A stretch of 64,000 bases of DNA from a virus: the IMG/VR virus record IMGVR_UViG_3300044630_004371, positions 1 to 64,000 of that record; one strand, written 5' to 3'. This document shows positions 26,622 through 58,528 of this stretch, one piece after another. The notes beneath the pieces were generated by a model. That model ran no database searches. It saw only the letters and a program-made list of their open reading frames with translations, and was not told the DNA's origin. The translations under genes were made by a program, and so were the position numbers. Within the stretch, counting starts at the first letter, position 1. Each line of letters begins with the position of its first letter.

Positions 26622-27323
26622 ATGAAAAACTTTATAAAAAAATTACTACGTGAAGTAATAAACGCCAGCGAAGCACAACGAGATGAAGATGCTTTAAAAA
26701 CTGTTATAGACGGAAAGAGAGATTTGGGGTTCATAACCTTAAAAGCCGCAACAATCCCAGAAAAAACATTTTGGGATGAAATTAAAAAACATGGTTTAGG
26801 AACTATAAGTCTTCCATTGAATCGTTATAACGCTTTCATTTATTTTAGAAAAGGTGCTGAATTAAAAGCCCTTGAATTATCTAATATTGCAAATAAATAT
26901 GGTGGTTATCTATCATATGAAGCAACCAGAGATGAGACAATAAGAATTGGGCAATTGCTAGGTTATAAAGAATCAGATATATCTGATTATATAAATAAAA
27001 AATACCCAGTAAATGAACAAATGATTGATGGTCAAGACATGAATCAAGGGACCCAAACCCTGTGTAATAAAATGACCATAAACAGCTATCAAGAAGCCGC
27101 ATTCTACGTCAAGAAGGCTCTAGAAGGTATGGATAAAACAACCAAAAATAGAATCATGCAAAAGATTCATGTGCCTTTGGAGAACCTTAGACAAGAACAA
27201 AATACAATCAATTCAGAAATCAAAAATAATGGTATGTCTGGAGATTCAATACCAGACGAAGCTGATACATATTGGCATCAAATTCAATCAACCATTTGTG
27301 AAATGGGTTCAGATTTTGAATAA
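26622..27323 (+). CDS. Protein with N-terminal capsid-targeting-like peptide
   Basis: A 233-residue protein starting MKNFIKKLLREVINASE. The first 12 residues match the K-x-(L/I)-I-K-K-L-L-R-E peptide found at the start of several other proteins here and end in an (L/I)-x-E prohead protease signature. The rest is a soluble alpha/beta domain (LGFITLKAATIPEKTFWDEIKKHG, later ENLRQEQNTINSEIKNN) of no recognised family. I infer that it is an internal virion protein trimmed by the gp21-like protease. Confidence 0.7.
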   Translation: MKNFIKKLLREVINASEAQRDEDALKTVIDGKRDLGFITLKAATIPEKTFWDEIKKHGLGTISLPLNRYNAFIYFRKGAELKALELSNIANKYGGYLSYEATRDETIRIGQLLGYKESDISDYINKKYPVNEQMIDGQDMNQGTQTLCNKMTINSYQEAAFYVKKALEGMDKTTKNRIMQKIHVPLENLRQEQNTINSEIKNNGMSGDSIPDEADTYWHQIQSTICEMGSDFE

Positions 27324-27329
27324 AATCAC

Positions 27330-27359
27330 TTGACAATTTTATAAGTTTTAGTATATTTA
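27330..27359 (+). promoter_or_regulatory. Host-type promoter, TTG-N19-TATATTTA
   Basis: TTGACA begins at 27330 and TATATTTA is at 27352-27359, with 19 bases between TTG and TA. The -7 box also contains the late core ATATTTAT, so the site may be read by both polymerase forms. It drives the zinc-ribbon gene through a leader of about 95 bases. Confidence 0.65.
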
Positions 27360-27385
27360 TTATTGCGTTGACTAATGTATTGGTC

Positions 27386-27434
27386 CCGACTGGTAAAACA
27401 GTTTAGAGTTGTTTCGGCAACAAAGGTATCGGTA
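27386..27434 (+). promoter_or_regulatory. Structured 5' leader with UUCG hairpin
   Basis: The leader holds three small hairpins in a row: ACTG/CAGT at 27389-27402, GTTGT/GCAAC with a TTCG loop at 27408-27421, and GTA/TAC around 27426-27434. A UUCG-capped hairpin is unusually stable. Such a leader is otherwise absent in this window, where most genes have leaders under 60 bases. Confidence 0.5.
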
Positions 27435-27463
27435 CAAATAACAAAAATTAAAAGTTAATAAAA

Positions 27464-28372: not shown

Positions 28373-28394
28373 TCAAAAATAATAGTTAACGCAA

Positions 28395-28427
28395 TAAAAA
28401 AGGGGTTTTTAACCCCCTTTTTTTTTA
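28395..28427. terminator. Bidirectional terminator
   Basis: AAAAAGGGG and CCCCTTTTT arms flank a short loop, with T-runs on both sides. It ends the plus-strand zinc-ribbon gene and the minus-strand gene at 28425. Confidence 0.8.
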
Positions 28428-29183
28428 TCTCATATTTTTACCTAATAACCCTTCTCTATTCATTCTAATTTTTAAATCTCTTATCCATCTTTCTTTAAAA
28501 TTACTTGGTAAACTATTATTTACAGTGTTTAAGGCTGGTGATATATTTAATATATCGTCAAATGTCAAGACATTCCAATTATTTTTATATTTATTGTATA
28601 ATTGTTTAATATTATGAATTTGTCCTTGTATTTCCATTTTTGTTGCGTTAACTGGAATTCCACCTATATCTCTTGTTTGTAATTCCACCTGTTTATTGAT
28701 TCTTTTTTCTATGTGTCTATTATGAAACACATCATCAATCCAATGTGTTAATTCATGATGAATAGAACCTTTAATTTTTTCTTCGGTAAATTCTATTTTA
28801 AATATCTTTTTTTGTTTGTAATCACTTAAATCATTAACAGCTTTAACAAAATCACCACCATTCGATAACACATGAGCTAAAGCATTTTTATGTATACCAA
28901 TACTTATTAATGATTTTTTTGGGTCGTAAAAATTACTACCCATATTAACCAAAATAGTACATGGTTTTAATTGATTAGCAATGATACATTCCCCATCTTT
29001 AAAAATCCTCGTTGTTGTTTGATTTTCTTTAAACATATTTCTAGTTACAATATTGGTTCTTTCAATCTCATCAATATCATTTTTAAAATAAAGATTGTAT
29101 AATAAATTAACATCTGATTCTATATTTGTTAATCTCTCAATTAACAAATTTTCTCTTAAAAGTTTTTTAATTAAATTTTTCAT
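28425..29183 (-). CDS. HExxH zinc metallopeptidase with targeting-like peptide
   Basis: A 252-residue protein starting MKNLIKKLLRENLLIERL, the clearest copy of the shared K-x-L-I-K-K-L-L-R-E peptide. The active-site-like motif is IKGSIHHELTHWID (about residues 137-150), a HExxH zinc site, with a downstream METQ-like acidic stretch (KMEIQGQI) that could supply the third ligand. No transmembrane segment or signal peptide is present. Together with the targeting-like peptide this suggests a peptidase packaged in the head and injected into the host. A late-type promoter core sits 6 bases upstream. Confidence 0.75.
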   Translation of the reverse strand: MKNLIKKLLRENLLIERLTNIESDVNLLYNLYFKNDIDEIERTNIVTRNMFKENQTTTRIFKDGECIIANQLKPCTILVNMGSNFYDPKKSLISIGIHKNALAHVLSNGGDFVKAVNDLSDYKQKKIFKIEFTEEKIKGSIHHELTHWIDDVFHNRHIEKRINKQVELQTRDIGGIPVNATKMEIQGQIHNIKQLYNKYKNNWNVLTFDDILNISPALNTVNNSLPSNFKERWIRDLKIRMNREGLLGKNMR

Positions 29184-29188
29184 ATCAA

Positions 29189-29198
29189 CTATAAATAT
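29189..29198 (-). promoter_or_regulatory. Late-type promoter core
   Basis: Read on the minus strand, ATATTTATAG lies 5 bases before the ATG at 29183. Confidence 0.65.
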
Positions 29199-29229
29199 TT
29201 GTAATTTACAATAAGTTTTGGTATCTTTA
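29199..29229 (+). promoter_or_regulatory. Orphan host-type promoter, TTG-N20-TATCTTTA
   Basis: TTG at 29199-29201 and TATCTTTA at 29222-29229 with exact 20-base spacing. It points right, but no plus-strand gene follows; both neighbouring genes are on the minus strand. It would make a short RNA or an antisense transcript into galE. Confidence 0.4.
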
Positions 29230-30275: not shown

Positions 30276-30299
30276 AAGTATAATATACGTATAAAACAA

Positions 30300-30333: not shown

Positions 30334-30350
30334 TTATATAAGAATATTAA

Positions 30351-30419
30351 TTATCTTAATTCTGCTACGTTGAATGTAGGTACACCATCTACTCTTACAT
30401 GCCCGTAAAACCTGTTATT
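30351..30419 (-). pseudogene. Duplicated 3' end of the major capsid gene
   Basis: Sixty-nine bases encode the last 22 residues of the capsid protein (NNRFYGHVRVDGVPTFNVAE, then LR and a stop). The peptide is identical to the end of the intact gene, while 12 codons differ by 13 silent base changes and none changes an amino acid. A stop two codons upstream prevents any longer reading. The terminator and 3' flank are duplicated too. It is a remnant left by insertion of the HNH cassette, and its divergence shows that it comes from a different capsid allele. Confidence 0.88.
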
Positions 30420-30816
30420 TGGTTAGAATAATTTGATATGTTAAATCAGCAACGTACTCCAACATGGTCTTTCCGTGTTGTTTTATGAATTTAATTCTAT
30501 GTTTATTTACATTAAATGATTCTAATTTTGGTATTTCATTTACTTCACCCATAACATATTTATGAGCCATTGGATAATTTATAGCAAAAACCTTAAAACC
30601 CACCGAATTCACCAGCTCAACATCTCTTTTATTACCACCCCATAATTCAAGCTCATTAATATATTTATCTAAATCTTCTCGTAGGATACACCAACATTGA
30701 ATGCCATCATAAGGTAATTTTCTAATGGTACCACGATTATCAAAATTCTTTGTTCGTACAAAAATGATGTCATTATTAAGGTTTTCTCTTAATATTTTTT
30801 TTATCAACAACTTCAT
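30415..30816 (-). CDS. Hypothetical protein with targeting-like peptide
   Basis: A 133-residue protein starting MKLLIKKILRENLNND, another copy of the shared N-terminal peptide. The body (IFVRTKNFDNRGTIRKLPYDGIQCWCILREDLDKY, VGFKVFAINYPMAHKYVMGE) has no recognised family. Its stop codon lies within the first codons of the capsid-gene remnant, and it travels with the HNH gene in the inserted segment. A late-type promoter core is 3 bases upstream of its start and overlaps the end of the HNH gene. Confidence 0.7.
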   Translation of the reverse strand: MKLLIKKILRENLNNDIIFVRTKNFDNRGTIRKLPYDGIQCWCILREDLDKYINELELWGGNKRDVELVNSVGFKVFAINYPMAHKYVMGEVNEIPKLESFNVNKHRIKFIKQHGKTMLEYVADLTYQIILTK

Positions 30817-30818
30817 AT

Positions 30819-30828
30819 CTATAAATAT
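30819..30828 (-). promoter_or_regulatory. Late-type promoter core
   Basis: On the minus strand, ATATTTATAG ends 2 bases before the ATG at 30816 and lies over the last codons of the HNH gene. Confidence 0.6.
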
Positions 30829-31603: not shown

Positions 31604-33493
31604 TTATCTTAATTCAGCTACATTGAAGGTTGGAACACCGTCTACACGCACGTGGCCGTAGAACCTATTATTCACAACTTTTTTAGCGTAACGAGTCATG
31701 ATACCTTTAACTGGAGCAAAGTTAAAAGGATTGTACATTGTTGGAGTCAATTGCAATGGCACGTATGGTGCGTAAATGTAACCTGTATCCAATAATGATT
31801 TACCTTTGTGACCAACGACTACTGAGTAAGCTGGAGCATAAGGGTCACGGTACACTTGGTAACGTCCACTTAAAGTTCCGATTCTTTCAATACCCATGTT
31901 GTATTGGTCTTGCTCTGGGTTAGCATCTGATACGTGGAAATATTCCAAATCATCGAAAATTGCAGAGATTTCAGAAGAAACCACGATGAAGTTAGCACCA
32001 CCACGAAGAGTTGATTTATGAATTTGAGCACTCAATTGGTTAACTCTAGTAAGAAGAGTTTGGTTCCAGTCTTTTTGAGTGTATGGGCTAGCAGCAGAAG
32101 AAGCTTTTCTCCAACCGTTGTAGTCCCAACGTAATTGCCATGCAGCAGCTTTACGTAAATCTCTAAGGATTTCACGGTCAATTTCCGCAGCAACTTGTTC
32201 TGACAACATAGCTGTCAATTCAGCTTCAGCATCAATGTTGTGGAATGCACTAACATCTTGAGCCAATTCTGGTGACCATGTTGCACGTAATTTTCTTTCT
32301 TCAACAGCAACTACAACTTCAGAAAGTGTGAAAGAAACCTCTCCCAATTCTGTTTCAAGTTCTAATGAAGAATATTCAGCCCATGCAAAACTTAAACTGT
32401 TAGTAACAGCTGAAGTTGAATAAGCAATACCACCAGTAGCACCAGTTGTACCTACATAACCATCATAAGTTGAAGTACCAGCAAGGGCAGTACCACTAGC
32501 AGTTGTACCAACTGGATGACGGAAATCTAATTCAAGATAGATAAGACCAGTATCAGTTACCAAGTTAGATGTTGGATTTTGAACGATAGCCTTGCCATAT
32601 TGTTGAGTTACTACACGGAAAGGAATTTCTTTGTTAGTAGCAATAACTGTGTTACCATCAGAATCTTTATAGTTACCACCAGCAACAACGTGCAATGAAG
32701 CCAAGAATGATTCAGTATCCATGTTGTTACCATCTGGACCAGTTAATACTTCACGTCCATTAGAACCAGCACCACCAGAGAAACCAGAAAGACCTACGAT
32801 TGCACTTCTAACTGAACCATCAGTAGATGTTGGCAATAAAGTAGCACCATAAGTAGGGGTTAATGAACCATCTGAATTAAATGTGAAGGTTGTGTAAGTT
32901 GTTTGTGTTTTGATAGTAAGAGTACCTTTTGAATTGTCGAATAAACCGTCATTGTAGAAGATATCATACATGTTTTTAGCTTGGAACTGAGTCAATGGAG
33001 TTGAAGCTTTAGTAGCAGCAACTGGCAACGCAGCAGCAGTAGCAACACCGTTGTGTTCACCATTCAAACCAGTGTGAGCTGAGAATGTTGTACCATAAAC
33101 GTCTGAACTTGGACTTAATGAATAATCATCACCAGCAACACCAGCAGAGTTTACACGGCTAGATGTTTGAGGGACAAAGAAGAACAATTTACCAATAGGC
33201 ATGTTCATAGCTTGTACAGACACGATGTCGTTAGCTAATAATTTAGAGAAAACTCTACGTACAATTGGGAATACAACTGTTTCGAAAGAACCAGAAGATT
33301 GTGCAGTTGTAGACTCAGTAAGTAATGTAGAAGCTTGGTTCTCATATAACTGAGCGATATTTTCTTTTACGTGGCCTTTAAGACCGTCAAGGAAGCCTAA
33401 GCTATCCCATTTTGATTGGGTTTCTTTACGGATAGCCTTCATGTGGTTCAATCCGATATTACCCACTTGTCCAGATGTTAATAAATGTGACAT
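31604..33493 (-). CDS. Major capsid protein, T4 gp23-like
   Basis: A 629-residue protein, longer than T4 gp23 (about 520), with the gp23 core: FPIVRRVFSKLLANDIVSVQAMNMPIGKLFFFV (about residues 75-107), and later EISAIFDDLEYF, YQVYRDPYAPAYSVVVGHKGKSLLDTGYIYAPYVPLQLTP near the C-terminus. A prohead protease site is visible at ENQASTLLTE (residue 60) before a Ser/Thr stretch, matching T4 gp23 maturation. The extra length lies in a Gly/Thr-rich central insertion (about residues 110-350). Its 3' end is duplicated at 30351. Confidence 0.93.
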   Translation of the reverse strand: MSHLLTSGQVGNIGLNHMKAIRKETQSKWDSLGFLDGLKGHVKENIAQLYENQASTLLTESTTAQSSGSFETVVFPIVRRVFSKLLANDIVSVQAMNMPIGKLFFFVPQTSSRVNSAGVAGDDYSLSPSSDVYGTTFSAHTGLNGEHNGVATAAALPVAATKASTPLTQFQAKNMYDIFYNDGLFDNSKGTLTIKTQTTYTTFTFNSDGSLTPTYGATLLPTSTDGSVRSAIVGLSGFSGGAGSNGREVLTGPDGNNMDTESFLASLHVVAGGNYKDSDGNTVIATNKEIPFRVVTQQYGKAIVQNPTSNLVTDTGLIYLELDFRHPVGTTASGTALAGTSTYDGYVGTTGATGGIAYSTSAVTNSLSFAWAEYSSLELETELGEVSFTLSEVVVAVEERKLRATWSPELAQDVSAFHNIDAEAELTAMLSEQVAAEIDREILRDLRKAAAWQLRWDYNGWRKASSAASPYTQKDWNQTLLTRVNQLSAQIHKSTLRGGANFIVVSSEISAIFDDLEYFHVSDANPEQDQYNMGIERIGTLSGRYQVYRDPYAPAYSVVVGHKGKSLLDTGYIYAPYVPLQLTPTMYNPFNFAPVKGIMTRYAKKVVNNRFYGHVRVDGVPTFNVAELR

Positions 33494-33527: not shown

Positions 33528-34793
33528 TTATTTTCTTTCAACTCTATTAATCAAATCTAAGATTCGTTTAGTTGAAGGGTCTACATACGCAGTACTTTCG
33601 TTCAATTGTCTTGAAGAACTTGTTGTAGCTTCTTTAATGATTTTGTTTTCTACTGATTCAGAAATTGGTTTTCTAGTTTCCAATTCGTTGACAATAGTTT
33701 TGTACAACTTTTTAGATTCTTTAAGACTTAAAACATCTTCATCAAATCTTTTAATGATGTTTTGTTTTTCAACCTTAGTAGTAGCGTGTTCGGTAAACAA
33801 TTTAGTTACATAAGTAAGATTGCTATTAAACACTACAGTTTCTACCAATTTTGTTCTAAACTCTTTCAAAGCTGTTCTGAACTCTTGGTTCTCAGCTCTC
33901 AATTTGCTAGCTTCAGTCAATAAAAGGTTATATTTTTTGGTTGTTTCAGAAACAAGTTTCTTAGTGGCTTCAGTGATAGATTTAGGGTTTTCTGGAGCTC
34001 CAATTGATTTTGGTCCTTTACCACGATGTGTTCCCACGCTCATATTAGTACCAATACTAATTTTTTCTTCAATAGGTTCTTCTTCAGACTCTTCCTCTTC
34101 TTCTTCCTCTTCACCTTCTTCATCATCCACAGACATCAAATCAGTTGGTTCTTCACCATCTTCTTCGTCACCCATTTCGATTTCATAATCTACGTCACCT
34201 TCTTCATCACCCATTTCTGGTTCCATTTCTGGTTCCATTTCTGGTTCCATTTCTGGTTCCATTTCTGTAGAACCTTTAAGGTCAGATGTTTTGATAACGT
34301 ATTCTCCTGGTTCAGAGACACTAAGGTGAATTTCGTCACCCACGATTTCGATTTCATCATCACCACTCAATTTCTTGTAGATTGCGATAACGTCATCATC
34401 TGATGCAGATGTCATGTCCAATTCTTCTGATGCACCTAAGTCATCCATTCCTTCTTCGTATGTCATGCCTTCAGCTTCCATACCTTCTGTGTCCATACCT
34501 TCTGTCATTTTTTTAGATTTAGCTTTTTCTTTCTTTTCAGAACCACCTTTGCCATGTTCAGCTTTTTCTTCTTTTTCAGATTCACCAGCTTCATGTTCTT
34601 CATGTGATTCTTCATTTACAGAACCAACTTCCTCTTCTTCATAAACCTCTCTAGTTAGAGATTCTTTCACAACACCATCAATTTCTTCTCTAGCTACGCT
34701 ACGAAGTATTTCTTTTGTGTTGGCATTGAGAGCACTTTGAATATTTTTAATATCCAATAAAGCTTCTTCAAGTATTGATTTTTTGTCTGCCAT
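33528..34793 (-). CDS. Prohead scaffold protein, gp22-like
   Basis: A 421-residue, highly acidic protein between the capsid and protease genes, the place of T4 gp22. It has long Glu-rich stretches (about residues 50-95 and 210-245), a (EPEM) tandem repeat near residues 180-200, and a coiled-coil C-terminal half (KYNLLLTEASKLRAENQEFRTALKEFRTKLVETV). LNE/KEA-type (L/I)-x-E sites occur near the C-terminus (KIIKEATTS, RQLNESTA), as expected for a core cleaved on maturation. No enzyme domain is present. Confidence 0.78.
   Translation of the reverse strand: MADKKSILEEALLDIKNIQSALNANTKEILRSVAREEIDGVVKESLTREVYEEEEVGSVNEESHEEHEAGESEKEEKAEHGKGGSEKKEKAKSKKMTEGMDTEGMEAEGMTYEEGMDDLGASEELDMTSASDDDVIAIYKKLSGDDEIEIVGDEIHLSVSEPGEYVIKTSDLKGSTEMEPEMEPEMEPEMEPEMGDEEGDVDYEIEMGDEEDGEEPTDLMSVDDEEGEEEEEEEESEEEPIEEKISIGTNMSVGTHRGKGPKSIGAPENPKSITEATKKLVSETTKKYNLLLTEASKLRAENQEFRTALKEFRTKLVETVVFNSNLTYVTKLFTEHATTKVEKQNIIKRFDEDVLSLKESKKLYKTIVNELETRKPISESVENKIIKEATTSSSRQLNESTAYVDPSTKRILDLINRVERK
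34212..34265. repeat. 12-bp tandem repeat in scaffold gene
   Basis: About 4.5 copies of TGGTTCCATTTC, giving the repeated EPEM protein pattern. The near-perfect repetition suggests recent slippage. Confidence 0.85.
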
Positions 34794-34914: not shown

Positions 34915-35637
34915 TTAATCGGTCAAAAAATTATCAAGTTTATCAGTTAGGTTCTCTTTGATGATAGATTTTTTAATTTCTACGTTCTCTACATAGGGTT
35001 TAGACTCTTCAACATTCCTAAAAATCCATGCGTCTGGTGTTGATGGAGCTGTTACTACGTCCCAGCAGATAATCTCAAAATCATCTTGAACAATTTGTTC
35101 ACCATTTCTACCTTCTTTCAATGAACCAACACCTCTAGATGATACACCAATCTTTATTCTATTTCTCAATAGATTAGCTACTTCATCACCTTTGGTTGAA
35201 ACAATACCGTAATTGATAAAACCAGGTGTCATAAGGATTTCCATTTTACCCATAAGAGTATGAGCTTCCCACCATGTTTCGATAATATTATGTGAAATTC
35301 TATCACCAGCGATAATACTAGATTCTGGGTGGTCTAATTCACCAACAGCACTACGCTCTCTAATTGCTTTTTGATATAGTTCGTTTTGTCTTACAAGGAT
35401 TTCTTTCGGATATATACGTCCATTACGGTTTAGGATACCGTATTTTTGGAGAATAACGTAAACTACTAGTGGTTCGGCAATAACCAATTTACCAGTTTCT
35501 AATTTTCTTAACTCATTGATAAAAGGCTGGTTTCTTGGTTCGTCTGGGCTTATATAGCCAGCATCGTGCTCAATCAATCCACCCCACCCACTTTCACCAC
35601 GTTTTAGTACTTTAAAATCTTTATAATTTATATCCAT
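34915..35637 (-). CDS. Prohead core protease, T4 gp21-like
   Basis: A 240-residue serine protease of the gp21 family. The catalytic His is in VGELDHPESSII (His103), and the catalytic Ser in IKIGVSSRGVGSL (Ser166 or Ser167), with the late VTAPSTPDAWIF typical of this clan. It cleaves scaffold, capsid protein and internal proteins after (L/I)-x-E. Candidate substrates in this window are the capsid protein (LLTE at residue 60) and the proteins that carry the LLRE/ILRE peptides. Confidence 0.92.
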   Translation of the reverse strand: MDINYKDFKVLKRGESGWGGLIEHDAGYISPDEPRNQPFINELRKLETGKLVIAEPLVVYVILQKYGILNRNGRIYPKEILVRQNELYQKAIRERSAVGELDHPESSIIAGDRISHNIIETWWEAHTLMGKMEILMTPGFINYGIVSTKGDEVANLLRNRIKIGVSSRGVGSLKEGRNGEQIVQDDFEIICWDVVTAPSTPDAWIFRNVEESKPYVENVEIKKSIIKENLTDKLDNFLTD

Positions 35638-35653: not shown

Positions 35654-35663
35654 ATATAAATAT
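35654..35663 (-). promoter_or_regulatory. Late-type promoter core
   Basis: On the minus strand, ATATTTATAT lies about 16 bases before the protease start at 35637. Confidence 0.6.
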
Positions 35664-36781: not shown

Positions 36782-37579
36782 TTAGTTTTCTTTTAAATTA
36801 CTTCTTAGTTCTACAATCTTTGAAATATTTTTTATGAAATCTTCATTGATATCTTGTTTATCGTTTAAAAGCTTATCTTTGACTCTTAAAAGTTTATCTT
36901 TAGCGTTTAAATCAGTTGTGTCAAGTTTCTCATCAATAAATGCGATACACTCTCTAATTGTGTTTGAATAAACTTCTTTCTTTTCCTCATCTGTTGAATC
37001 AATCAAAGTTTTTAAAATTTTCCTTTCTGATTCATCCAATGAAGCATATTTTTCGTTGTATTTATCAACCATCATTGTACTTAACATACTGTTAGGTAAT
37101 TCAATCGCCTCAGTTAAAGTTTTAGCTTTGTTGTTCACAATCCAATCAACAACCTTGCTTGTAGCTTCTACAATAGTATCAACTGTTTCTGGATTTTTGT
37201 TTGTGAAGATAAGGATTGAAACATTTTCATATAACTCTGTTTTACCGTCATAAAGTTCTGCTTCAAAAAGCTTTTTCTCTAAATTTATCAATTTTGTATT
37301 GGCTTCTAAAATATCTTTTTTGTTGAACTTAGAAAACAATTTAATGTTTTCCTTTACGAACATAGTGGCTTTGGTCACATCTGACTCTACCTTTTGTTCA
37401 ATATTGGTATAAACCAAAAATTGAGTCTTAAGAATTTTGTTTTCTGCTATACATTTAACGTAACTCTTAAATAACTCTTTTTTTGATTTATCATCTGACA
37501 TAACGCTTTCAGCTAAAATTGTGTTATAAACACTCTTAATATGGCCGAAGTTTTTTGTTATTAATGTTAAATCTGTCAT
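36782..37579 (-). CDS. Hypothetical head-region protein
   Basis: A 265-residue, Lys/Glu-rich, almost all-helical protein (VKENIKLFSKFNKKDILEANTKLINLEKKLFEAELYDG, later LLRVKDKLLNDKQDINEDFIKNISKIVELRSNLKEN). It lies just downstream of the portal gene, where T4 has the small core proteins gp67 and gp68, so a prohead core role is possible. A late-type promoter core precedes it. Confidence 0.65.
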   Translation of the reverse strand: MTDLTLITKNFGHIKSVYNTILAESVMSDDKSKKELFKSYVKCIAENKILKTQFLVYTNIEQKVESDVTKATMFVKENIKLFSKFNKKDILEANTKLINLEKKLFEAELYDGKTELYENVSILIFTNKNPETVDTIVEATSKVVDWIVNNKAKTLTEAIELPNSMLSTMMVDKYNEKYASLDESERKILKTLIDSTDEEKKEVYSNTIRECIAFIDEKLDTTDLNAKDKLLRVKDKLLNDKQDINEDFIKNISKIVELRSNLKEN

Positions 37580-44356: not shown

Positions 44357-46962
44357 TAACCGATATACATGTTTAATTCATAGTTACCACCATCCATTCT
44401 ATAAATTTGAATATTTAAAGACTTTCTTTGTGGCATACCATCCTTTGTTAGTTCTTTGTGTAATCTTTCTGTATGACCATAAGGTACGTGTTGAACATCG
44501 TTCATATCAAACTCAACCCCATCGTAACCTCTATTGATAGCATAACCTCTAACTGCATCCAAAGCACTAGAAAGAGTCTTGTGGTATGTCTCATAATCAA
44601 ATTTACCCTCTTTAACAGCTTTTGGGTCTGGTTGAGTGCTGGGCATTGGTAGGAAAGGTTTATCCTTTCTACTTGGTTGTCTTACAGGTTGTTCTGCTGG
44701 TTTAGTTGTTGGTTTTACAACTGGTTCTGTTACTGGTTGATTCATAGTGTCTTCTTGATTAAAAGATTCATACATCTTCATTTTAATATAATTTTTATCA
44801 AATATACTACTTTTTTTTGATTCTGACAAGTCTTTTTCAACAATTTTAGACACTGGTTTTTTAGACCACATTCTACATGACCAATATTTAGGTGTTGTTC
44901 TATCTTTGGCTTGAGAACACTTGTGTCTTGCTCTAAAAGATTTTCTTCTTTTTGGATTGTCTCTTTTTATTTCCATATTGGGGTCACCAAAATTGACTTT
45001 TACAACCTTACCAGAACTATTTTTAACAAATACCTTGAATTTCTTAACATCACCTCTCATTGGTTTACCCAATTTTACAGTTCTGCCTTTATATTCAGCT
45101 TCATTCATGGTTGTATTTTGAACACTACCGTATTCATCACTATAACCACCTTGAGTTTCACCATCATAAGAATCAACCTCGGTTTCAATAAAGTGATAAA
45201 CTTCTTCAACATCATCAGCTGAAGTAGCCACATGGTCTAGTGCCCAACCATGACCATCAGATAGAATTGAATCAACTCTAGATGGGTCCATTTCTAACAT
45301 TTCTTTGGCACCATGATGCATGGTTTTTAGGTTTTGCCAAAACATGTAATTATTTGATTCATGTTCGTGTTCCATCATAGGTTCACCATCAGCACCTTCA
45401 TAGTTTATTTGACCTTCCAAGAAATGATAAACTTCTTCAATGTCATCATTTGCAGTAGCCATATGGTCTAGTGCCCAACCATGACCATCAGATAGAATTG
45501 AATCCACTCTATTGCAATCCATTTTCATCAACTCACCAGTTGCATGAACAATTGTTTTAAGGTTAGACCAAAACATGTAATTATTTGTTTCACCCATATT
45601 TTCATTAAGTTCATCTGAAGTATCATAATGTTTTAAGTTTCCTATAGGATATCTTTCACCAGTTTCAGCGTTATATAAAACAATCACCTCTTCACCATCT
45701 TTATTACCAATAAAATAGTGTATGTTATCATTGGTTAAACTCCAATATAAAGTTCTTCCATAATCATCTTCTTCTCTTTTTTGTACTTTATCACCAGAAG
45801 CAGACTCAATAGCTGATTTAACAAAATCAAAACTAATATTTTCATAAACGTTATATTTGGATTCATTTGTTGATTTTTTACCCCATGAATCACCTTTTCC
45901 TTTGGTTTTACAAGCACTAGGTGTTGGTCTGCATGAAGGATACTTGGCTCTGCTTTCACCATCTTCTCTACCACATGGTTTACATTTTCCATCCCTACAT
46001 GTATTGCAATCTACCCAACCCTTGCTACCTTCACCACCTCTTCTAGAAAACCAACCATGCAATCCGCTTTCTTTTTCTTTAGAAAAATCAGTTTTTTTAG
46101 CGGCTTCTTCTATTGATTCATTATGTTTTTTTCTTCCTTGGCAATGTGCTTTTTGACTAAAACCCTTAGGGTTGTCACAATCAATACTTCTTTTATATTT
46201 TTGTGACCATTTTTCATCTAATTGTTCGTCAGTCATGGACTTATAATCACCCATTTCTTTTAAATCTTCCTCCTTAAGCCCTTTCCAAATCTTACCTTTT
46301 CTGCATCTAACAACAGCACCAGAAGCATAAGCAGATGGCCAAACATCATATTTGCTTTTAGCTATTCTTGTGCATCTGTCTGATTCATCTAAAATATCAT
46401 TTGAACCATCTTGAAACATATTGTTTTTCTTAGGGTTAACAAATAAATTATCCATGTTTTCGTAAACATGCAATTCATCCAAACCTTCTTCGTCAGATGG
46501 TTCAGATTCTGGTTCTGGTTCTTCGCTAGGTGTTTCATCAGATGTTTCATCGCTTTCTGGGGCAACATCTTTATCTTTTTGACCAGCAGTTTTAACTTTG
46601 TTTATGATGTCTTTTTGGTCATCAACATCCATTTCAGAAGTGTGAGTTGCTGACAATAACGAATTTATTGAGAACTTTTCTAGTTCAAAATCTGGTTGAC
46701 CTTGTTCTTCAGTATATTTTCTTAGGGATTGTCCTAACTTTCCAGTTAGTTGCTCAATAAATTTCTTTGGGTCTGTTTCTTCATTAGCATCAACACCAGC
46801 ATCAAATGGTTCATCATCAAATGGTTTTTCATTTGAACTTGGTGTTTCACTATCAAATGAAATATCTGCTGGTTCTGCTGGTTCTGCTGGTTCAGTTGTA
46901 GCTGCTGGTTCTGGGGTAGAACCAGCAACTTTTAACTTATATTTTGTTTCTTCAGTTAGACT
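44356..46962 (-). CDS. Large virion protein part 2, DUF5872 and repeat domains (-1 frame)
   Basis: The frame is open from the A10 run down to 44356 (868 residues) but has no ATG until 46632. It reads on directly from the upstream gene after a -1 shift. An acidic Pro/Ala linker comes first (PAEPAEPAEPADISFD), then SINSLLSATHTSEMDVDDQ. Next are SKYDVWPSAYASGAVVRCRKGKIWKG and the cysteine-rich HGWFSRRGGEGSKGWVDCNTC...CKPCGREDGE block of the DUF5872 type, two 57-residue repeats (NYMFWxNLKT...HGWALDH), and RRKSFRARHKCSQAKDRTTPKYWSCRMWSK. The C-terminal part is alpha/beta. It is probably a virion protein made as one product with its upstream part. Confidence 0.75.
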   Translation of the reverse strand, partial: SLTEETKYKLKVAGSTPEPAATTEPAEPAEPADISFDSETPSSNEKPFDDEPFDAGVDANEETDPKKFIEQLTGKLGQSLRKYTEEQGQPDFELEKFSINSLLSATHTSEMDVDDQKDIINKVKTAGQKDKDVAPESDETSDETPSEEPEPESEPSDEEGLDELHVYENMDNLFVNPKKNNMFQDGSNDILDESDRCTRIAKSKYDVWPSAYASGAVVRCRKGKIWKGLKEEDLKEMGDYKSMTDEQLDEKWSQKYKRSIDCDNPKGFSQKAHCQGRKKHNESIEEAAKKTDFSKEKESGLHGWFSRRGGEGSKGWVDCNTCRDGKCKPCGREDGESRAKYPSCRPTPSACKTKGKGDSWGKKSTNESKYNVYENISFDFVKSAIESASGDKVQKREEDDYGRTLYWSLTNDNIHYFIGNKDGEEVIVLYNAETGERYPIGNLKHYDTSDELNENMGETNNYMFWSNLKTIVHATGELMKMDCNRVDSILSDGHGWALDHMATANDDIEEVYHFLEGQINYEGADGEPMMEHEHESNNYMFWQNLKTMHHGAKEMLEMDPSRVDSILSDGHGWALDHVATSADDVEEVYHFIETEVDSYDGETQGGYSDEYGSVQNTTMNEAEYKGRTVKLGKPMRGDVKKFKVFVKNSSGKVVKVNFGDPNMEIKRDNPKRRKSFRARHKCSQAKDRTTPKYWSCRMWSKKPVSKIVEKDLSESKKSSIFDKNYIKMKMYESFNQEDTMNQPVTEPVVKPTTKPAEQPVRQPSRKDKPFLPMPSTQPDPKAVKEGKFDYETYHKTLSSALDAVRGYAINRGYDGVEFDMNDVQHVPYGHTERLHKELTKDGMPQRKSLNIQIYRMDGGNYELNMYIG
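45189..45588 (-). repeat. Two-copy internal repeat in the DUF5872 protein
   Basis: Copies at about 45189-45357 and 45418-45588 encode near-identical 57-residue units. A central stretch of about 40 bases, around TGGTCTAGTGCCCAACC, is identical in both copies, while the flanks differ, so the centre is either recent or conserved. Confidence 0.85.
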
Positions 46963-47681
46963 TTTTTTTTTAACCCTTCAGTTAGGTTATTGATAAGTCT
47001 ATCCATGTTTTTAATTGATGTTGAAATGCTAAGTTTTGATTCTTCCATACCTTTCTTTTCACCTCTTAACTTTTTGAAATCATCACTATCCAACTTGCCA
47101 TTTTTATTCATGTCAAGTTTTGATTGATTTCCTTTAAGTTCTTCTCTAGTCATCATTTCATCTATGGCTTTTTCAGCTTCAGAAAGCTCATCTTCTTCTT
47201 CTTCTTCTTCTTCCCACATTGATTGTTGTCCTTCATTGTTTCCTTTACCAGAAAAACCATTGGTTTTCATTTCAGAAAAACCACCAGCACTAGGCATGTT
47301 TTCTGAAATAAGGTTGTCGTTTTCAAATATGTTGATTTCACCTTCAAAGTTATAAGCTTCAGCTAGACTTTTGAATTTAAAACTTAAATGTTTGATGGCC
47401 TTGGCATATGAAGTGTAAACTTCATCTTTTTTGTTCATCAAACCTCCGATATATTTGAAATCTTCAGCAACCAAGTTAGAAGTTTTGGTGGTTTTTTTAA
47501 TAAACCATTCGTGGTTTTCTCTTATGATAGCATAAGCGTTACCGTCTGGACCCATCTTGGTCAATTCAACAACAACATTAGATTGGTTTTCATTAATAGA
47601 TTTGATACCCATTAATTCTTTCATACGTTCATTTATTTGTTGTCCCTTAAGACCAACTGGTGTGATTCTATTATTTTTCAT
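46956..47681 (-). CDS. Large virion protein part 1, EF-hand-like (0 frame)
   Basis: A 241-residue protein that stops two codons after an A10 run (LTEGLKKKV). It contains an EF-hand-like loop, KLDMNKNGKLDSDDFKKLRG (about residues 195-214), a GGFSEMKTNGFSGKGNNEGQQSMW segment and a Glu-rich patch. The N-terminus begins MKNNRITPVGLKGQQINERMKELMG. The stop is 24 bases past the end of a stop in the -1 frame, leaving a short window in which a shift on the A-run joins it to the large downstream frame, for a product of about 1108 residues. Confidence 0.78.
   Translation of the reverse strand: MKNNRITPVGLKGQQINERMKELMGIKSINENQSNVVVELTKMGPDGNAYAIIRENHEWFIKKTTKTSNLVAEDFKYIGGLMNKKDEVYTSYAKAIKHLSFKFKSLAEAYNFEGEINIFENDNLISENMPSAGGFSEMKTNGFSGKGNNEGQQSMWEEEEEEEDELSEAEKAIDEMMTREELKGNQSKLDMNKNGKLDSDDFKKLRGEKKGMEESKLSISTSIKNMDRLINNLTEGLKKKV
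46962..46971 (-). other. A10 slippery run at frame junction
   Basis: On the minus strand GGGTT is followed by ten A then GTCTAA. A -1 slip, or one more A in the run, changes the frame to AGT CTA ACT GAA and joins the two parts. A TGA in the -1 frame at 46978 limits the window from the other side. Confidence 0.75.
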
Positions 47682-49058: not shown

Positions 49059-49062
49059 AACT

Positions 49063-49806: not shown

Positions 49807-49820
49807 AATAATATCTTTAT

Positions 49821-49830
49821 TAATAAATAT
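49821..49830 (-). promoter_or_regulatory. Late-type promoter core, GIY-YIG gene
   Basis: On the minus strand, ATATTTATTA lies 14 bases before the ATG at 49806, within the 56-base gap after thyA-a. Confidence 0.58.
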
Positions 49831-49862
49831 ACAAAAAAACCAAAAAAACTCAATAAGAATAG

Positions 49863-50180
49863 TTATTTATTTGAATTTTTTTCTAACTTTTCACACTCTT
49901 CCAAATAAGAACGGTAAGCGTCTCCTGTCCAGATATTACAGTCGTTTTCTAATAGATACTCTATTGATGTATCACCGCGTAAAAACCAAATAAGTTCAGT
50001 AACCATTGTTTTAAACGCCATCTTCTTGGTAGTCAACAATGGAAAACCATCACTCATTTTATGACGAATTTGTCTACCAAATACCGATAGCACTTCTCCA
50101 TTTCTGGTTTGTTTCTTTACTCCATTATCTAAGATGTCTTGGAGTAGGTCTGTGTAACTTTTATCTAATGTGTTACTCAT
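49863..50180 (-). CDS. thyA: Thymidylate synthase, N-terminal part (thyA-a)
   Basis: A 105-residue protein with the start of Thy[64 protein letters not shown], then [17 protein letters not shown]. It ends with a short tail ([10 protein letters not shown]) not found in whole ThyA and just where thyA-b picks up (YTKEEFVEKIKTDKKFADRFG). Dimer-forming and dUMP-binding parts are thus split over two chains. It overlaps the upstream gene by 8 bases. Confidence 0.9.
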
Positions 50181-54202: not shown

Positions 54203-54212
54203 ATATTTATAG
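54203..54212 (+). promoter_or_regulatory. Late-type promoter core
   Basis: ATATTTATAG lies 2 bases before the ATG at 54215, which would make an almost leaderless transcript. It starts right after the Clp terminator and so opens a new transcription unit. Confidence 0.65.
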
Positions 54213-54214
54213 TT

Positions 54215-54616
54215 ATGAAACCAATAATTAAACAACTTTTAAGAGAAAGATTGATGGGAAAAGAAGAGGCTGATTTAAGAGCAGTTGCTGATTTTGTCAA
54301 CTTTGCCAAAGAATTTTTAGGTATTACAGATGATATAAAAATTAAATTGGCGTTTGAAAGAACATCAGACCTTAAAACAACAGCTTATTACAGCATGTTG
54401 GGTGAGTTGGTTGTCTACGCCAAAGATAGGGCTATTATCGATATCTGTCGTTCAATTGCACATGAATTGGTTCACCATAAACAAAACCTTGAAGAGCGAT
54501 TGGTCAACGCTGTTAAAGACGGTGAAGACGGAAGTCCTATTGAAAACGAGGCCAACGCTGTAGCTGGTGTCATTATCAGAAAGTATGGCAAAATAAAACC
54601 AGAAATTTATATATAA
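54215..54616 (+). CDS. Small HExxH metallopeptidase with targeting-like peptide
   Basis: A 133-residue protein starting MKPIIKQLLRERLMG, a copy of the shared K-x-I-I-K-Q-L-L-R-E peptide. The zinc motif is SIAHELVHHKQNLEER (about residues 85-100), with a following IENEANAVAGVI acidic segment that could give the third ligand. The start at 54215 is chosen because it is downstream of the promoter core. It is the first of four linked genes for probable internal virion proteins. Confidence 0.75.
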   Translation: MKPIIKQLLRERLMGKEEADLRAVADFVNFAKEFLGITDDIKIKLAFERTSDLKTTAYYSMLGELVVYAKDRAIIDICRSIAHELVHHKQNLEERLVNAVKDGEDGSPIENEANAVAGVIIRKYGKIKPEIYI

Positions 54617-54667: not shown

Positions 54668-55543
54668 ATGTATAATACAAAGTTATTATTAAAAGAAGAA
54701 TTGATGCTCAATGATAGAAAAAATCTATTATCCGAGCATTCTATTTCTTTAATTAATAATCAAGCGTATGTAAACCATGTCTTGGGTATTGACTGTGTCT
54801 TAAATGAACACAATTCATTGAGCTTAAGACGAGCAATCATCAATGAACAATTGATTGCTGAGGCGATGCTGGATTCAATAAACAAATACATAGGTATTGC
54901 TTATGAAAAAGGCAAAGAAAAAACCCTAGAAGTTGTTGATAGCATAAAGAATTTAAAAGACATAGCAAAATTGGTGAAGGATTTAATGTTGGACCCAGAC
55001 TTGATGCGGACAGCTCTTAATCACCTTCAAATAAGTTTGGTCGATACCATGAAACGCATAACGGATAGTGTAACCAAGATATTAACCACTATAAAGTTTA
55101 ATATAGAGGGGTTTACTGATAAATTTAGCAAGTTGATTGAACATATAAGCAATGTAAGTGAAAAACTACTTAGTGAATCAGGGTGGACAGGTTTTCTAAT
55201 CATCCTATCCTTTACGACCTTATTGGCTTATTTAGAGAAAACTTATATTGATGGAATGTTAACAAAAGGATTGGACTTTATTACTAAAAATGCTGGTATG
55301 GTTTCTATGATAGCAAATATTTTTGATAAATTCAAAGAACTTAAAGGGTTGGTTTTAAGTGCAGTAGACATCAAACCAATTCTTTCTTGGTTTGCCAGTG
55401 TAGGTGTCGGAGCAGCAGCTGGGGCTACAGTCGGAGCAGCATTCGCAGCCGTAGATATAATAAATTTAATGGGTAAAATATTAGCACCAGTTATCAAATC
55501 AATCGATTGGGGTAAAAAATTACAAAAAAAACCACAAGTTTAA
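54668..55543 (+). CDS. Membrane-active or internal virion protein
   Basis: A 291-residue protein with an N-terminal region full of possible (L/I)-x-E sites (MYNTKLLLKEELMLNDRKNLLSEHS, IINEQLIAEAML). It has two hydrophobic segments, GFLIILSFTTLLAYLE (about residues 177-192) and the Ala/Gly-rich FASVGVGAAAGATVGAAFAAVDIINLMG (about 240-268), plus amphipathic helices. This looks like a protein that could insert into membranes, such as an ejected pore component. The next gene follows at 4 bases. Confidence 0.65.
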   Translation: MYNTKLLLKEELMLNDRKNLLSEHSISLINNQAYVNHVLGIDCVLNEHNSLSLRRAIINEQLIAEAMLDSINKYIGIAYEKGKEKTLEVVDSIKNLKDIAKLVKDLMLDPDLMRTALNHLQISLVDTMKRITDSVTKILTTIKFNIEGFTDKFSKLIEHISNVSEKLLSESGWTGFLIILSFTTLLAYLEKTYIDGMLTKGLDFITKNAGMVSMIANIFDKFKELKGLVLSAVDIKPILSWFASVGVGAAAGATVGAAFAAVDIINLMGKILAPVIKSIDWGKKLQKKPQV

Positions 55544-55547
55544 AAAT

Positions 55548-56762
55548 ATGCCATATACTCATAGAAAAGTAGGAGACAAACAATGCGTCTATAAAAAATA
55601 CACAGGTTCCAAGGTTGGTTGTACAAAAGGTGATGTGAATAAATATCTAGCCGCATTACACGCCAATGCCAATGAATCAGTAACAGAATCCAACACTTTA
55701 AAAGGTGGCAGTGATACAAAATATCCATACCCTATTTATAAAGGTGATGTATCAACATTAAAAACAGATGGTGAAGGGGTATCTTTTTTCACAAGAGATA
55801 AAGAAGCTGCCGATTACTATACTTCTTCAAGACAACAACAAGGAATAAGTCCTAAAACAAATAGCACATTTAAGGGATATTTACATACAAAAAACCCTTT
55901 GATTGTAGATGCTTTAAAACCAAGTCCTATAGAATTAAAAGACGCAAATGGAAATGTATTAGGTATTTTTGGACAGGGTGATTATATCCAAGCAGTAAAA
56001 GATGCTGGGTATGACGCAATCATAATAAATAAAAAATTCGGCACCCATTTAGATGGATGGGAAATCATCTCGTTCGATAGGAAACAAATAATACCAAAAA
56101 CAATGGATTCAATTACGGAAATTAACAAACTTAAAGGTGGCAAGTCTGATAAAATGTCTGTTGAAAATATAGCAAAAAAGTTTAAGGTATCAGTTGGTAA
56201 AATACAAGCTCAAATACAAAAGGGTATCAAGATTGAAATGGAACATACTTCCGATAAAGAAAAAGCGACAGAAATAGCCATGGACCACGTATCTGAATTC
56301 CCAGATTACTATGATAGACTTATTAAAATGGAAAAGAAAGCCGATAAAAAATGGGCTCTAGATGAAAATAAAAGTCTAATTAAACGTTTATTAAATGAAA
56401 ATTTAAATAAGAGAGAATCTTTAAATAATTTATTATTAAATTTTGGAATGTTAACAACGCTGGGTTTTTCACAAATAACTAAAATGGGTAAAGATGAAGA
56501 AGCAACCAAGGAATTAACTTTAATGATGCAAAACATTAGAAAACCAATAATAAATGGAATGCCATATGTTAAATTAATAGAAAATATAAATGTATTGGTA
56601 AATAATCCAAAATTACTTTCAGCTGTTGTTAATAAAGTTAGAGAATTTTTAATCTACATAAAACCAAGGATAATTAAATATGTTCAAGATAGTGATGTTA
56701 AAACTAATTGGTTGGGGAAAATTGAGAATTTAGAAAAACTATATTTGGAAGTAATAAAATAA
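55548..56762 (+). CDS. Polyvalent protein: ART-like fold, DUF5661, targeting-like peptide
   Basis: A 404-residue multi-domain protein. The N-terminal module (THRKVGDKQCVYKKYTGSKVGCTKG, then KYLAALHANANE) precedes an ADP-ribosyltransferase-like barrel (about residues 60-185: YPIYKGDVSTLKTDGEGVSFFTRDKEAADYYTSS, LHTKNPLIVDAL, DAGYDAIIINKKFGTHLDGWEIISFDRKQI), the ART-PolyVal type. A DUF5661 domain follows (about 200-265: VENIAKKFKVSVGKIQAQIQKG, EHTSDKEKATEIAMDH). At about residues 277-286 comes SLIKRLLNENL, like the shared targeting peptide, and then a helical tail. Injected polyvalent proteins have this domain style. A catalytic Arg or Glu of the ART fold could not be assigned. Confidence 0.75.
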   Translation: MPYTHRKVGDKQCVYKKYTGSKVGCTKGDVNKYLAALHANANESVTESNTLKGGSDTKYPYPIYKGDVSTLKTDGEGVSFFTRDKEAADYYTSSRQQQGISPKTNSTFKGYLHTKNPLIVDALKPSPIELKDANGNVLGIFGQGDYIQAVKDAGYDAIIINKKFGTHLDGWEIISFDRKQIIPKTMDSITEINKLKGGKSDKMSVENIAKKFKVSVGKIQAQIQKGIKIEMEHTSDKEKATEIAMDHVSEFPDYYDRLIKMEKKADKKWALDENKSLIKRLLNENLNKRESLNNLLLNFGMLTTLGFSQITKMGKDEEATKELTLMMQNIRKPIINGMPYVKLIENINVLVNNPKLLSAVVNKVREFLIYIKPRIIKYVQDSDVKTNWLGKIENLEKLYLEVIK

Positions 56763-56797
56763 AAGCTCAAATTAAAAAGGGTTGAAAAAAATGGGTA

Positions 56798-58528
56798 ATG
56801 AAAAAAAAAATAAATGAACGTGAAATTGATGGGGATATGGTTATTCATTTCATCAAAATTTTGGAAAAATCAAATATAGTCCCACGTGATTCATATAAAA
56901 ACACAAAATTAATAGAAACGATAACAGCAATCATATCAATGTCTGAAAACGATTTTTATAATTATATAAAGGAAAACCCTAATCGTAATGTTCAAATGAT
57001 TCGAACTGAATTCAATGATTGGAAACAAGTATATGGTAAGATTAGTGAAGGTGTGAAAAATTATCTTGCAACAGCAGCGTTAGGTTTAGGTTTAATGGGA
57101 ACCCCTAACATCACAAAGGGTTCAAATTTAACACAAATAGTTCAAAATCAATCACATAAAATTTTAAACACGGTAAGTTTCGATGCTTATCAACCAACAT
57201 CAAACCCAGATTTAGATTTGGTTCATGGTGCTTTAGGTTCAAATAGGTTACAAGATGATTTTGAAAAAAGAGTTGAACAAGAATTGTCAAGGCAAGTAAA
57301 AAATGGCAATACACCTAGTGTGTCTAATATACAAGTAAAAACATATGTACAAGGTGATAGAATAATAACCAAAGCATCTTGTGATATCATTCAATCTGAG
57401 GATGGAATTGCCTATACACATTTCACAACTAGGGGTTCAATAGGTTCCAATTATGATAAAAGACATGATATCCAAATAAATGGACTAATTAACAGATTAG
57501 AAAACTACTACGGGGGAGTTGCTAAACAAATTGGTAACCCTATTGATATTTCTTTTACATTAAACGGTAGTATTATAACCTATAGACAAAGTTTCTTTGT
57601 TGCATCCGATACCAAAAGTCTAATAAAAATAAATTTTGAAAGTAAAGAAATTATTGGTTCCGATATTAATGATTTGAGAAATAAATTAAATTCGGAAACG
57701 CAAAACATTTATATAGACGTTAACTCTATTAATGTTGATATGAATAATTATAAAATATCCTACAAAATTGGTAATGTTAAAATATATAAAATTTCTTTAT
57801 TATTTGACGATTCTGGTAATTTACAAAATAGATTGAAAAATGTAAAGATACAAAACCAAACCTTTAAAGAAATTAAAGTGGGCAAGGTAGGTAATTTAGA
57901 ATGGGTTGTTGGTTTAATACCTTATGAAGAAAAAGTAAATGAAGGTACCAAATCTTTGATTAAACGTATTATTCGTGAGAAATTTGAAATAGTTAAAAAT
58001 GTCCTTGATATTCAAGAACCATTTGATTCTATGAAAATTATTAAAATTAACGGTAGAAATGTTTATGTGTTATTTGGAAATGTTGATTATTATGAAAATA
58101 AAGAATCGATTCTAGCATTAAAAAGAAAATCTAATGATATCTCCATTAATCACGATAATTATCATAAATTTTTAATAGAAGCAAAAAATAGATTTTTTAG
58201 TATTCCAGAATTAAAAAATGTTGGAACTGTTATCTCAATTGAAACGACAGCCCCGATTACTGATGAATTATCTGATGCGCTTAACCTTCCTTATAAAAAA
58301 CATGGGTTTTTAAAACAAAATTCAAATTTCAAAATGAAAGACGTACCCTTAGATAAACGTTCAGAAGTTAAAAATTTATTTAACCTAAACTTTGATATCA
58401 AAAATAATGAATCAATATGTATTCTAGATGATTTTATAACGACTGGAACATCATTTAAAAATGCGTTTAGTCTATTACCAAACAATGTTGATTCTGTTGG
58501 TGTGTGTTTATTTATTTTAAAAAGCTAA
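56798..58528 (+). CDS. Large protein with C-terminal phosphoribosyltransferase-like domain
   Basis: A 576-residue protein. Residues 1-375 are a mostly beta-rich region of unknown family with one hydrophobic helix (YLATAALGLGLMGTP near 90-105). At about residues 385-395 comes SLIKRIIREKF, the shared peptide, and then a domain of about 180 residues ending in ESICILDDFITTGTSFKNAF (540-551 for the core), the PRPP-binding loop of type I phosphoribosyltransferases. If the peptide is cut, the PRTase-like domain would be released alone. The substrate is unknown. Confidence 0.72.
   Translation: MKKKINEREIDGDMVIHFIKILEKSNIVPRDSYKNTKLIETITAIISMSENDFYNYIKENPNRNVQMIRTEFNDWKQVYGKISEGVKNYLATAALGLGLMGTPNITKGSNLTQIVQNQSHKILNTVSFDAYQPTSNPDLDLVHGALGSNRLQDDFEKRVEQELSRQVKNGNTPSVSNIQVKTYVQGDRIITKASCDIIQSEDGIAYTHFTTRGSIGSNYDKRHDIQINGLINRLENYYGGVAKQIGNPIDISFTLNGSIITYRQSFFVASDTKSLIKINFESKEIIGSDINDLRNKLNSETQNIYIDVNSINVDMNNYKISYKIGNVKIYKISLLFDDSGNLQNRLKNVKIQNQTFKEIKVGKVGNLEWVVGLIPYEEKVNEGTKSLIKRIIREKFEIVKNVLDIQEPFDSMKIIKINGRNVYVLFGNVDYYENKESILALKRKSNDISINHDNYHKFLIEAKNRFFSIPELKNVGTVISIETTAPITDELSDALNLPYKKHGFLKQNSNFKMKDVPLDKRSEVKNLFNLNFDIKNNESICILDDFITTGTSFKNAFSLLPNNVDSVGVCLFILKS

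Follow-up and report, generated by a model that had tools for sequence, protein, structure and literature searches.

Unrelated proteins of an uncultured virus share a short peptide that resembles a T4-type capsid-targeting and processing signal

The window analysed here, a stretch of 64,000 nt (positions 1-64,000) of the 86,858-bp record IMGVR_UViG_3300044630_004371 of an uncultured virus, with a guanine plus cytosine (GC) content of 31%, encodes a set of dissimilar proteins that share a short peptide, hereafter the tag, located at the very start of four of them and between the units of two others. The tag is real and more extensive than first noted, and it probably represents a capsid-targeting propeptide of the T4 type, cut by a prohead protease of the gp21 type (Peptidase S77) and borne by a large, exchangeable set of virion-carried proteins; the best reading of this cargo is that some of it is organized in multi-unit chains and that the set itself has been shuffled. 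Most of the in silico tests favor the capsid-targeting interpretation put forward in an earlier note on this DNA, a few being uninformative.

In the mechanism proposed, the 11-residue amphipathic helix M-K-x-hydrophobic-I-K-K-L-L-R-E at the front of the protein would bind the scaffold core of the prohead, and through this binding the tagged protein would be built into the head, where the S77 protease would cut after the Glu of the tag, at the L-[LI]-x-E signature used on the capsid protein, leaving the freed body in the head with the DNA to be injected at the next infection. The tag behaves as an exchangeable cassette, with different tags on the same body and one tag on many bodies, and in chains whose units each possess a tag or an [LI]xE joint the protease may free the separate units.

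Tagged proteins and head genes of the window

The proteins of the window bearing the tag, or a weaker form of it, are the following (a slash marks the point after the Glu at a candidate cut or joint):

26622..27323 (+): tagged protein 1, 233 aa; tag MKNFIKKLLRE at 26622-26654, followed by an inserted module and, beyond the joint PVNE/QMIDGQ, a conserved 'IDGQ' domain
28425..29183 (-): tagged protein 2, 252 aa; tag MKNLIKKLLRE at 29151-29183; body with HHELTHW (HExxH)
30415..30816 (-): tagged protein 3, 133 aa; tag MKLLIKKILRE at 30784-30816
54215..54616 (+): tagged protein 4, 133 aa; tag MKPIIKQLLRE at 54215-54247; body with AHELVHH (HExxH)
54668..55543 (+): 291 aa; weaker tag-like start MYNTKLLLKE/E, then DRKNLLSE/H
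55548..56762 (+): multi-unit protein, 404 aa; ADP-ribosyltransferase (ART)-like part, DUF5661, internal tag KSLIKRLLNE at 56370-56399, C-terminal unit
56798..58528 (+): 576 aa, multi-unit; internal tag KSLIKRIIRE at 57950-57979, between an N-terminal domain and a C-terminal part with a phosphoribosyltransferase-like motif (by eye)

The four N-terminal peptides read as the earlier note had given them, the two internal ones lie where it had placed them, and the looser start of the 54668 product is likewise confirmed; the sole relative of this last protein among the loci compared at that stage (L103; L-, G- and N-numbers label compared loci, viral records and body clusters, respectively) keeps RQLLKE/EL at the equivalent position, and the body of tagged protein 3 had no relatives among those loci. 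The identities proposed for several bodies were sustained in part. Both proteins described as HExxH peptidases contain the motif, but neither they nor the 56798 protein had a Pfam match up to E 0.1, and the PHROG matches of the two were weak, none with an annotated function fitting a peptidase; 'peptidase' and 'phosphoribosyltransferase-like' are thus motif labels given by eye. In the predicted model of the 28425 protein the confidence drops under 50 over residues 1-18 and 156-175 and is mostly 72-95 elsewhere, and a Foldseek search with it, confident as it is over most of the body, returned nothing at E 0.001, so that 'peptidase' here refers to the HExxH motif itself. The DUF5661 part of the 55548 protein stands, while its ADP-ribosyltransferase match (E 1.8e-4) falls under the Pfam cut-off. 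For the 26622 protein the fold prediction was of low confidence except in the C-terminal helices, and Foldseek gave no match at E 0.001.

A T4-like head module is encoded on the minus strand, in which terminase and portal are followed by a core candidate rich in [LI]xE, by three small genes and the S77 protease, and finally by an acidic candidate for the scaffold and by gp23; the genes of the T4 record run 17, 18, 19, 20, 67, 68, 21, 22, 23. The members relevant to processing are:

31604..33493 (-): major capsid protein, gp23 homologue (Pfam PF07068, E 1.5e-72)
33314-33325 (-): candidate capsid cut LLTE/S, capsid residues 57-60
33528..34793 (-): acidic protein in the place of gp22 (scaffold), assigned by position in the T4 gene order; Pfam search without match
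34915..35637 (-): prohead protease, gp21 / Peptidase S77 homologue (Pfam PF03420, E 5.5e-24; phrog_207 head maturation protease, E 1.6e-39)
36782..37579 (-): candidate core protein occupying the place of gp67/gp68, assigned by position; start YNTILAE/S

Two further statements of the earlier note, that a gp21 homologue is encoded and that the capsid protein has LLTE at residue 60, are borne out by these rows. The core candidate contains 13 [LI]xE in 265 aa, the top density among the listed genes of the window. Near the terminase, a 766-aa protein (44356-46656, minus strand) contains repeated SDGHGWALDH units, found also as a small tagged protein in L094, and a YDVWPSAYAS unit that is tagged in L099.

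Distribution of the tag and level of its conservation

The type A tag, defined as MKx[LIF]IKKLLRE and searched in IMG/VR as a degenerate DNA pattern, begins a gene in at least 118 stretches, compared with 2 for a scrambled pattern of equal composition, and the pattern has 39 matches in a set of bacterial and archaeal genomes, spread across many phyla. In 80 loci centred on relatives of the S77 protease of the window, the tag opens 25 of 1824 open reading frames (ORFs); shuffling the N-termini of these loci leaves a mean of 0.02, and for control viral loci the figure is 1 of 2820 ORFs. An origin by chance from lysine- and leucine-rich starts, which would be common in AT-rich phages and for which the GC content of the window could speak, is rejected by the scrambled pattern, the control loci and the shuffled N-termini, and its probability is negligible. 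Among the matches listed in an unanchored search, 30 distinct proteins came from new loci, eight with an ATG within 8 residues, eight with GTG or TTG directly before the tag, six with other short upstream frames and eight with the tag internal; the 45 listed proteins from earlier loci all have a nearby ATG because those loci came from an ATG-anchored search. The density of tags is uneven, a 368-kb record (G047) having about three tagged genes, and one tag-bearing contig (L461; QCKH01000009.1, 63,985 bp) was deposited in a Prochlorococcus single-cell genome, which may be a hint of the host or reflect a co-sorted virus.

In 120 distinct tagged genes, the free positions of the tag keep the type of residue while the codons differ, with TTA, CTT and CTA at L9 and AGA, AGG, CGA and CGT at R10, and the 40 bases upstream display weak single-base preferences; this synonymous variation indicates that the peptide, and not the DNA, is conserved. 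Since the pattern fixed K2, I5, K6 and E11, conservation at these residues proves nothing, and positions 4, 8 and 9 were restricted to hydrophobic residues; the composition of position 9 (114 L, 4 I and 2 V) is to be read with the hydrophobic residue and the final Glu both set by the pattern.

A motif precedes many of the tagged genes, and in the window it is located as follows:

29190..29198 (-): ATATTTATA motif (promoter candidate), before tagged gene 2
30820..30828 (-): ATATTTATA motif, preceding tagged gene 3
54203..54211 (+): ATATTTATA motif, preceding tagged gene 4
35655..35663 (-): ATATTTATA motif, preceding the gene of the protease

It is also found ahead of the core candidate, the terminase and a tail-region gene of the window, and before none of the 19 genes listed at 85-17001. 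In the compared loci, the 60 nt upstream of the gene contain ATATTTAT or TATTTATA in 73 of 160 tagged genes and in 386 of 1534 other ORFs (p 1.2e-7), a contrast that may be inflated by the less certain starts of the other ORFs; the antisense orientation is found in 9 of 160 and 78 of 1534, respectively, so the motif is strongly oriented. The ATATTTATA-like motif is a candidate late promoter for this clade, and its greater frequency ahead of tagged genes, together with its presence before head genes, speaks in favor of the capsid-targeting reading. The T4 late-promoter octamer, TATAAATA, has no exact copy in the 120 bases upstream of any listed gene of the window. Of the 73 tagged genes with the motif, 58 have it 11-15 nt ahead of the start, as could be expected if the conserved start were a translated DNA or RNA feature such as a promoter, a leader or a recombination seed; nevertheless, this explanation is rejected mainly through the codon variation, and it is further opposed by the internal copies, which sit inside longer frames, and by the occurrence of the motif before untagged genes and its lack before 87 of the 160 tagged ones, which together make it very improbable.

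Diversity of the bodies and further tag types

The 178 proteins with an N-terminal type A tag fall into 81 body clusters, 47 of them singletons, in agreement with the earlier claim that the bodies are unrelated. A looser search raised the number of proteins to 219 with type A and 42 with type B tags, and that of body clusters to 120, an upper figure, given that the loose pattern had false hits among the 120 representatives, such as the start of the UvsX recombinase (L447) and capsid-neighbour proteins (e.g., L005:2275 and L075). A Pfam search (E 0.001) of these representatives, with 25 of 30 families listed, identified ART-PolyVal in three, AAA_33 in three and GNAT in two, and NUDIX, superoxide dismutase, zeta toxin, SprT-like, peptidoglycan-binding and other families, mostly in one each; ART-PolyVal follows the tag immediately and above the cut-off in L150 and L054.

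The second tag (type B), MNLQENIxRIKxMMG[IL][IL]xE, was found in 35 IMG/VR stretches; the bodies behind it are varied, and none of its 31 distinct copies is more than 20 residues away from an ATG. Both types occur in three body clusters: in one of them the same body (49% identity over 167 aa) stands behind MKDLIKKILKE in L374 and behind MNLQENIHRIKEMMGIISE in L382, and in the other two the similarity covers just part of the length. Eight cases in the loci compared, seven near a start and one in the window, suggest a third tag type. Examples of the second and third types in the window are:

46956..47681 (-): protein with a second-type tag near its N-terminus, RMKELMGIKSINE/N at 47589-47627
60050..60259 (-): protein with a third-type tag-like start, KIKENDLVDLIDNIVNE/A at 60185-60235

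Two proteins of the isolate Flavobacterium phage immuto (MW353175), whose genome includes a gene annotated as a prohead core protease, share the start MKKQILSEQF[KR]RMQxLAGIITE/S. In L091, tag-like starts, some of which are hybrids between types, are found on ten minus-strand genes in a row (2615-11881), a series that includes a single ORF on the other strand. No description of these tags was found in open-licence PubMed Central text with the terms used, which did retrieve literature on T4, P1 and giant phages.

The cut signature

The T4 protease gp21 cuts after L/I-x-E (PMC9026906), and both tag types end in [LI]xE, in keeping with the signature that the earlier note had recognized. The capsid site aligns as L[LI]xE in 76 of 76 gp23 sequences, that of the window included and near-identical viruses not thinned. 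In the T4 record gp23 reads FLTE/A at residue 65 and gp24 starts MAKINELLRE/S, and, according to excerpts of PMC9958956, the prohead protease removes the first 65 residues of the former and the first 10 of the latter; the cut of gp24 at LLRE/S makes the last four residues of the tag a documented T4 site. For the T4 internal protein IPIII, whose propeptide is MKTYQEFIAE, residues 4 and 7 are reported in the excerpted text to matter for targeting and residues 8 and 10 for processing (PMC9026906). Aligned on the Glu, these positions would correspond to I5, L8, L9 and E11 of the type A tag, and to hydrophobic residues and Glu in the second tag; the agreement with MKTYQEFIAE is limited to the MK start plus the register of the hydrophobic residues and the Glu.

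Modularity and joints

The suggestion that the peptide is modular by position is supported by the internal tags and [LI]xE joints, which separate modules that occur alone elsewhere. The alignment of the 'IDGQ' family of the 26622 protein comprises 29 sequences, the window and 28 others; the tag or a tag-like start lies directly before the domain in 22, and an extra module, apparently of three kinds, intervenes in seven, that of the window among them. All 29 sequences have Glu at the junction with the domain and L, I or V at P3, and the sequence preceding this Glu varies. The 28425 body stands alone after the tag in L144 and L097, and forms the second unit of proteins of about 650 aa in L155 and L086, after the joints NTLRE/G and KNILTE/S. 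Similarly, the 54215 body is alone after the tag in L103, L142 and L143, follows an upstream module with an internal tag in L185 and L345, and stands behind another tagged module in L092, L152 and L154. A DUF5661-like module, then an internal tag, then other units are found, as in the 55548 protein of the window, in L143 (by BLAST) and in L432, L433 and L439 (by eye), one unit of L432 being GNAT-like by eye, and the L418 chain combines, also by eye, a DUF5661-like module, an N-terminal domain like that of the 56798 protein, a tag and another unit.

The joints were assessed in 42 embedded placements from 12 clusters, with tag-preceded placements removed. In 28 of the 42 an [LI]xE is no more than 6 residues from the joint (expected 8.1), and in 12 it is exactly at the joint, at offset 0 (expected 0.65), and none of 10,000 cluster-level draws reached 28 or 12. 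These figures bear directly on whether the tag is a capsid-targeting, scaffold-docking helix that stays uncleaved, its [LI]xE ending being a helix-capping habit. Such a separation of functions has a precedent in T4 IPIII, where, in the excerpts of PMC9026906, an Asp at position 10 blocks processing and not targeting; however, the resemblance of the tag end to the capsid site and to T4 gp24, the placement of [LI]xE exactly at fusion joints and the invariant junction Glu of the IDGQ family all point to cleavage, and an uncleaved helix appears unlikely.

Association with the S77 protease

The co-occurrence of tag and protease was evaluated in 49 distinct tag-bearing records of at least 30 kb, out of 80 stretches listed from the tag search; near-identical viruses were not thinned (G021 and G035 match at identical coordinates and look like one virus), and the control locus L259 was excluded since it belongs to the same record as the tag-bearing L111, which has no S77 there. 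S77 was found in 25 of the 49, with every match over the cut-off, and in 9 of 50 control records overall, or 6 of 32 at 30 kb and above (Fisher p 0.005 for 25/49 versus 6/32). gp23 was detected in 27 of the 49 tag-bearing records, and all 24 in which it was judged full-length have S77; of the other three, one is cut by the record end (G045) and two are partial domains (G016 and G031). Among records with the type B tag, S77 occurs in 8 of 27, fragments included. The HK97-type protease S78 was absent from the 49 tag-bearing records, a comparison that says little because S78 is rare in controls too (2 of 50), and the S80 search returned nothing in the 24 S77-negative records or in the control genomes, so it had no positive control.

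In G021, G035, G060 and G104 the S77 match is in two parts about 1 kb apart within one open frame of 615-632 aa, as in an intein-like insertion; G101, a 269-kb record, has two S77 matches about 200 kb apart; and G016, G024, G028, G031 and G045 contain short partial gp23-like domains in small proteins away from the main capsid gene.

Weighing of the interpretation

Several observations weigh against a capsid-targeting, S77-cleaved tag. Nearly half of the tag-bearing records (24 of 49) lack an S77 match, although these are probably fragments, because no strong terminase match was found in them (two weak ones, 27%). At 100 kb and above, the proportion with S77 is 11 of 16 for records bearing the tag and 4 of 8 for controls, so record length accounts for part of the contrast, and the 21 S77 proteases compared are 44-100% identical (median 51%), a relatedness through which phylogeny confounds the link. 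The check proposed in the earlier note, whether the peptide tracks with gp21-type proteases, gives co-occurrence in all tag-bearing records with full-length gp23, a link confounded by phylogeny and record length. The core and scaffold proteins are likewise rich in [LI]xE, which by itself makes the motif weak; 14 of the 42 joints lack it, including most of those in two clusters (with the motif in 1 of 5 in N109 and 1 of 4 in N156), and the joint of the window's own 26622 protein is VNE. Some tagged bodies match peptidoglycan-binding or endolysin-like families, unexpected within a head, and in the S77-centred loci alone the upstream motif precedes 16 of 35 tagged and 187 of 623 other genes, a smaller difference.

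Part of this evidence could be accommodated if the tag addressed the proteins elsewhere, for example to a membrane, to a phage nucleus or to a compartment of the tail or baseplate, the S77 link then reflecting shared ancestry. Membranes are bound by cationic amphipathic helices, many of the bodies have no known function, and clade and record length both confound the S77 association, all of which would suit such an address. It leaves unexplained, however, that the tag ends in a copy of the capsid maturation site, that [LI]xE joints occur within chains, and that second and third tags of other sequence have a similar ending; it is a poor candidate, ranking slightly below an uncleaved helix. Beyond the capsid-targeting propeptide itself, the sequences may reflect a general packing-and-processing code of T4-like phages of uncultured bacteria, with effector operons bearing interchangeable tags, as the L091 series would exemplify, plus chains dismantled by S77 inside the head. 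Shell maturation, detachment of the cargo from the scaffold and the splitting of multi-effector chains would then all fall to one protease, and injected proteins would be listable from sequence alone across many viral genomes; we would place the chances of this broader proposal just short of even.

Comparison with known systems

The closest parallel is provided by the T4 internal proteins IPI-III and Alt, with their capsid-targeting sequence (CTS) removed by gp21: the likenesses are a short N-terminal propeptide with an (L/I)-x-E end, unrelated and fast-changing bodies, an encoded gp21-type protease, hydrophobic residues at P7, P4 and P3, and an ADP-ribosyltransferase domain among the tagged bodies. 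The T4 CTS is 10-19 residues long, compared with 11 residues at the start of the four window proteins. The sequence-level features of a T4-type CTS are thus found here, that is, a putative short N-terminal propeptide, the (L/I)-x-E end, S77 with the capsid signature, and unrelated bodies; what sets the present proteins apart is a peptide of another sequence, the existence of more than one exchangeable tag, a wide range of body families, and internal tags and unit chains, in uncultured AT-rich phages. The T4 gp24 propeptide shares the LLRE ending and loses 10 residues to the prohead protease, but gp24 is a shell protein, not cargo, and its first residues are unlike those of the tag.

Polyvalent proteins of phages and conjugative elements are presented in the excerpted text of Iyer et al. 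2017 (PMC5512222) as multi-domain chains of disparate activities proposed to be packaged and injected. The apparent multi-domain chains and the ART-PolyVal domains behind the tag (3 of 120 representatives) resemble them, and in the window the 55548 chain, with DUF5661 plus the sub-threshold ART match, may be polyvalent-like, the related unit chains having been identified by eye only; in those excerpts no shared N-terminal tag is described, whereas the units here are divided by tags and protease-type joints. In phage P1, excerpts of PMC9024508 report that the first 30 residues of DarB suffice to carry a foreign protein into the head; this concerns another phage, another protease and a single protein.

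Other features of the window

A thymidylate synthase is seemingly split on the minus strand (48063-50180, by eye), with its N-terminal part at 49863-50180 and the remainder at 48063-49085; a GIY-YIG-like endonuclease ORF (49063-49806, by eye) lies between the halves and resembles an intron or homing insertion. At 85-17001, on the plus strand, about 19 successive genes, many of them sugar synthesis-, glycosyltransferase-, fucosyltransferase-like or methyltransferase-looking by eye, may constitute a phage-carried surface-glycan set.

Implications

Injected phage proteins are not usually known without virion proteomics; if the tag is what it appears to be, a readable signal would turn their identification into a sequence search, yielding many candidate counter-defence and takeover proteins in phages that lack cultured hosts. 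The short tags would be usable for loading proteins into such capsids. The internal-protein scheme of T4 would be one case of a wider modular cargo system.

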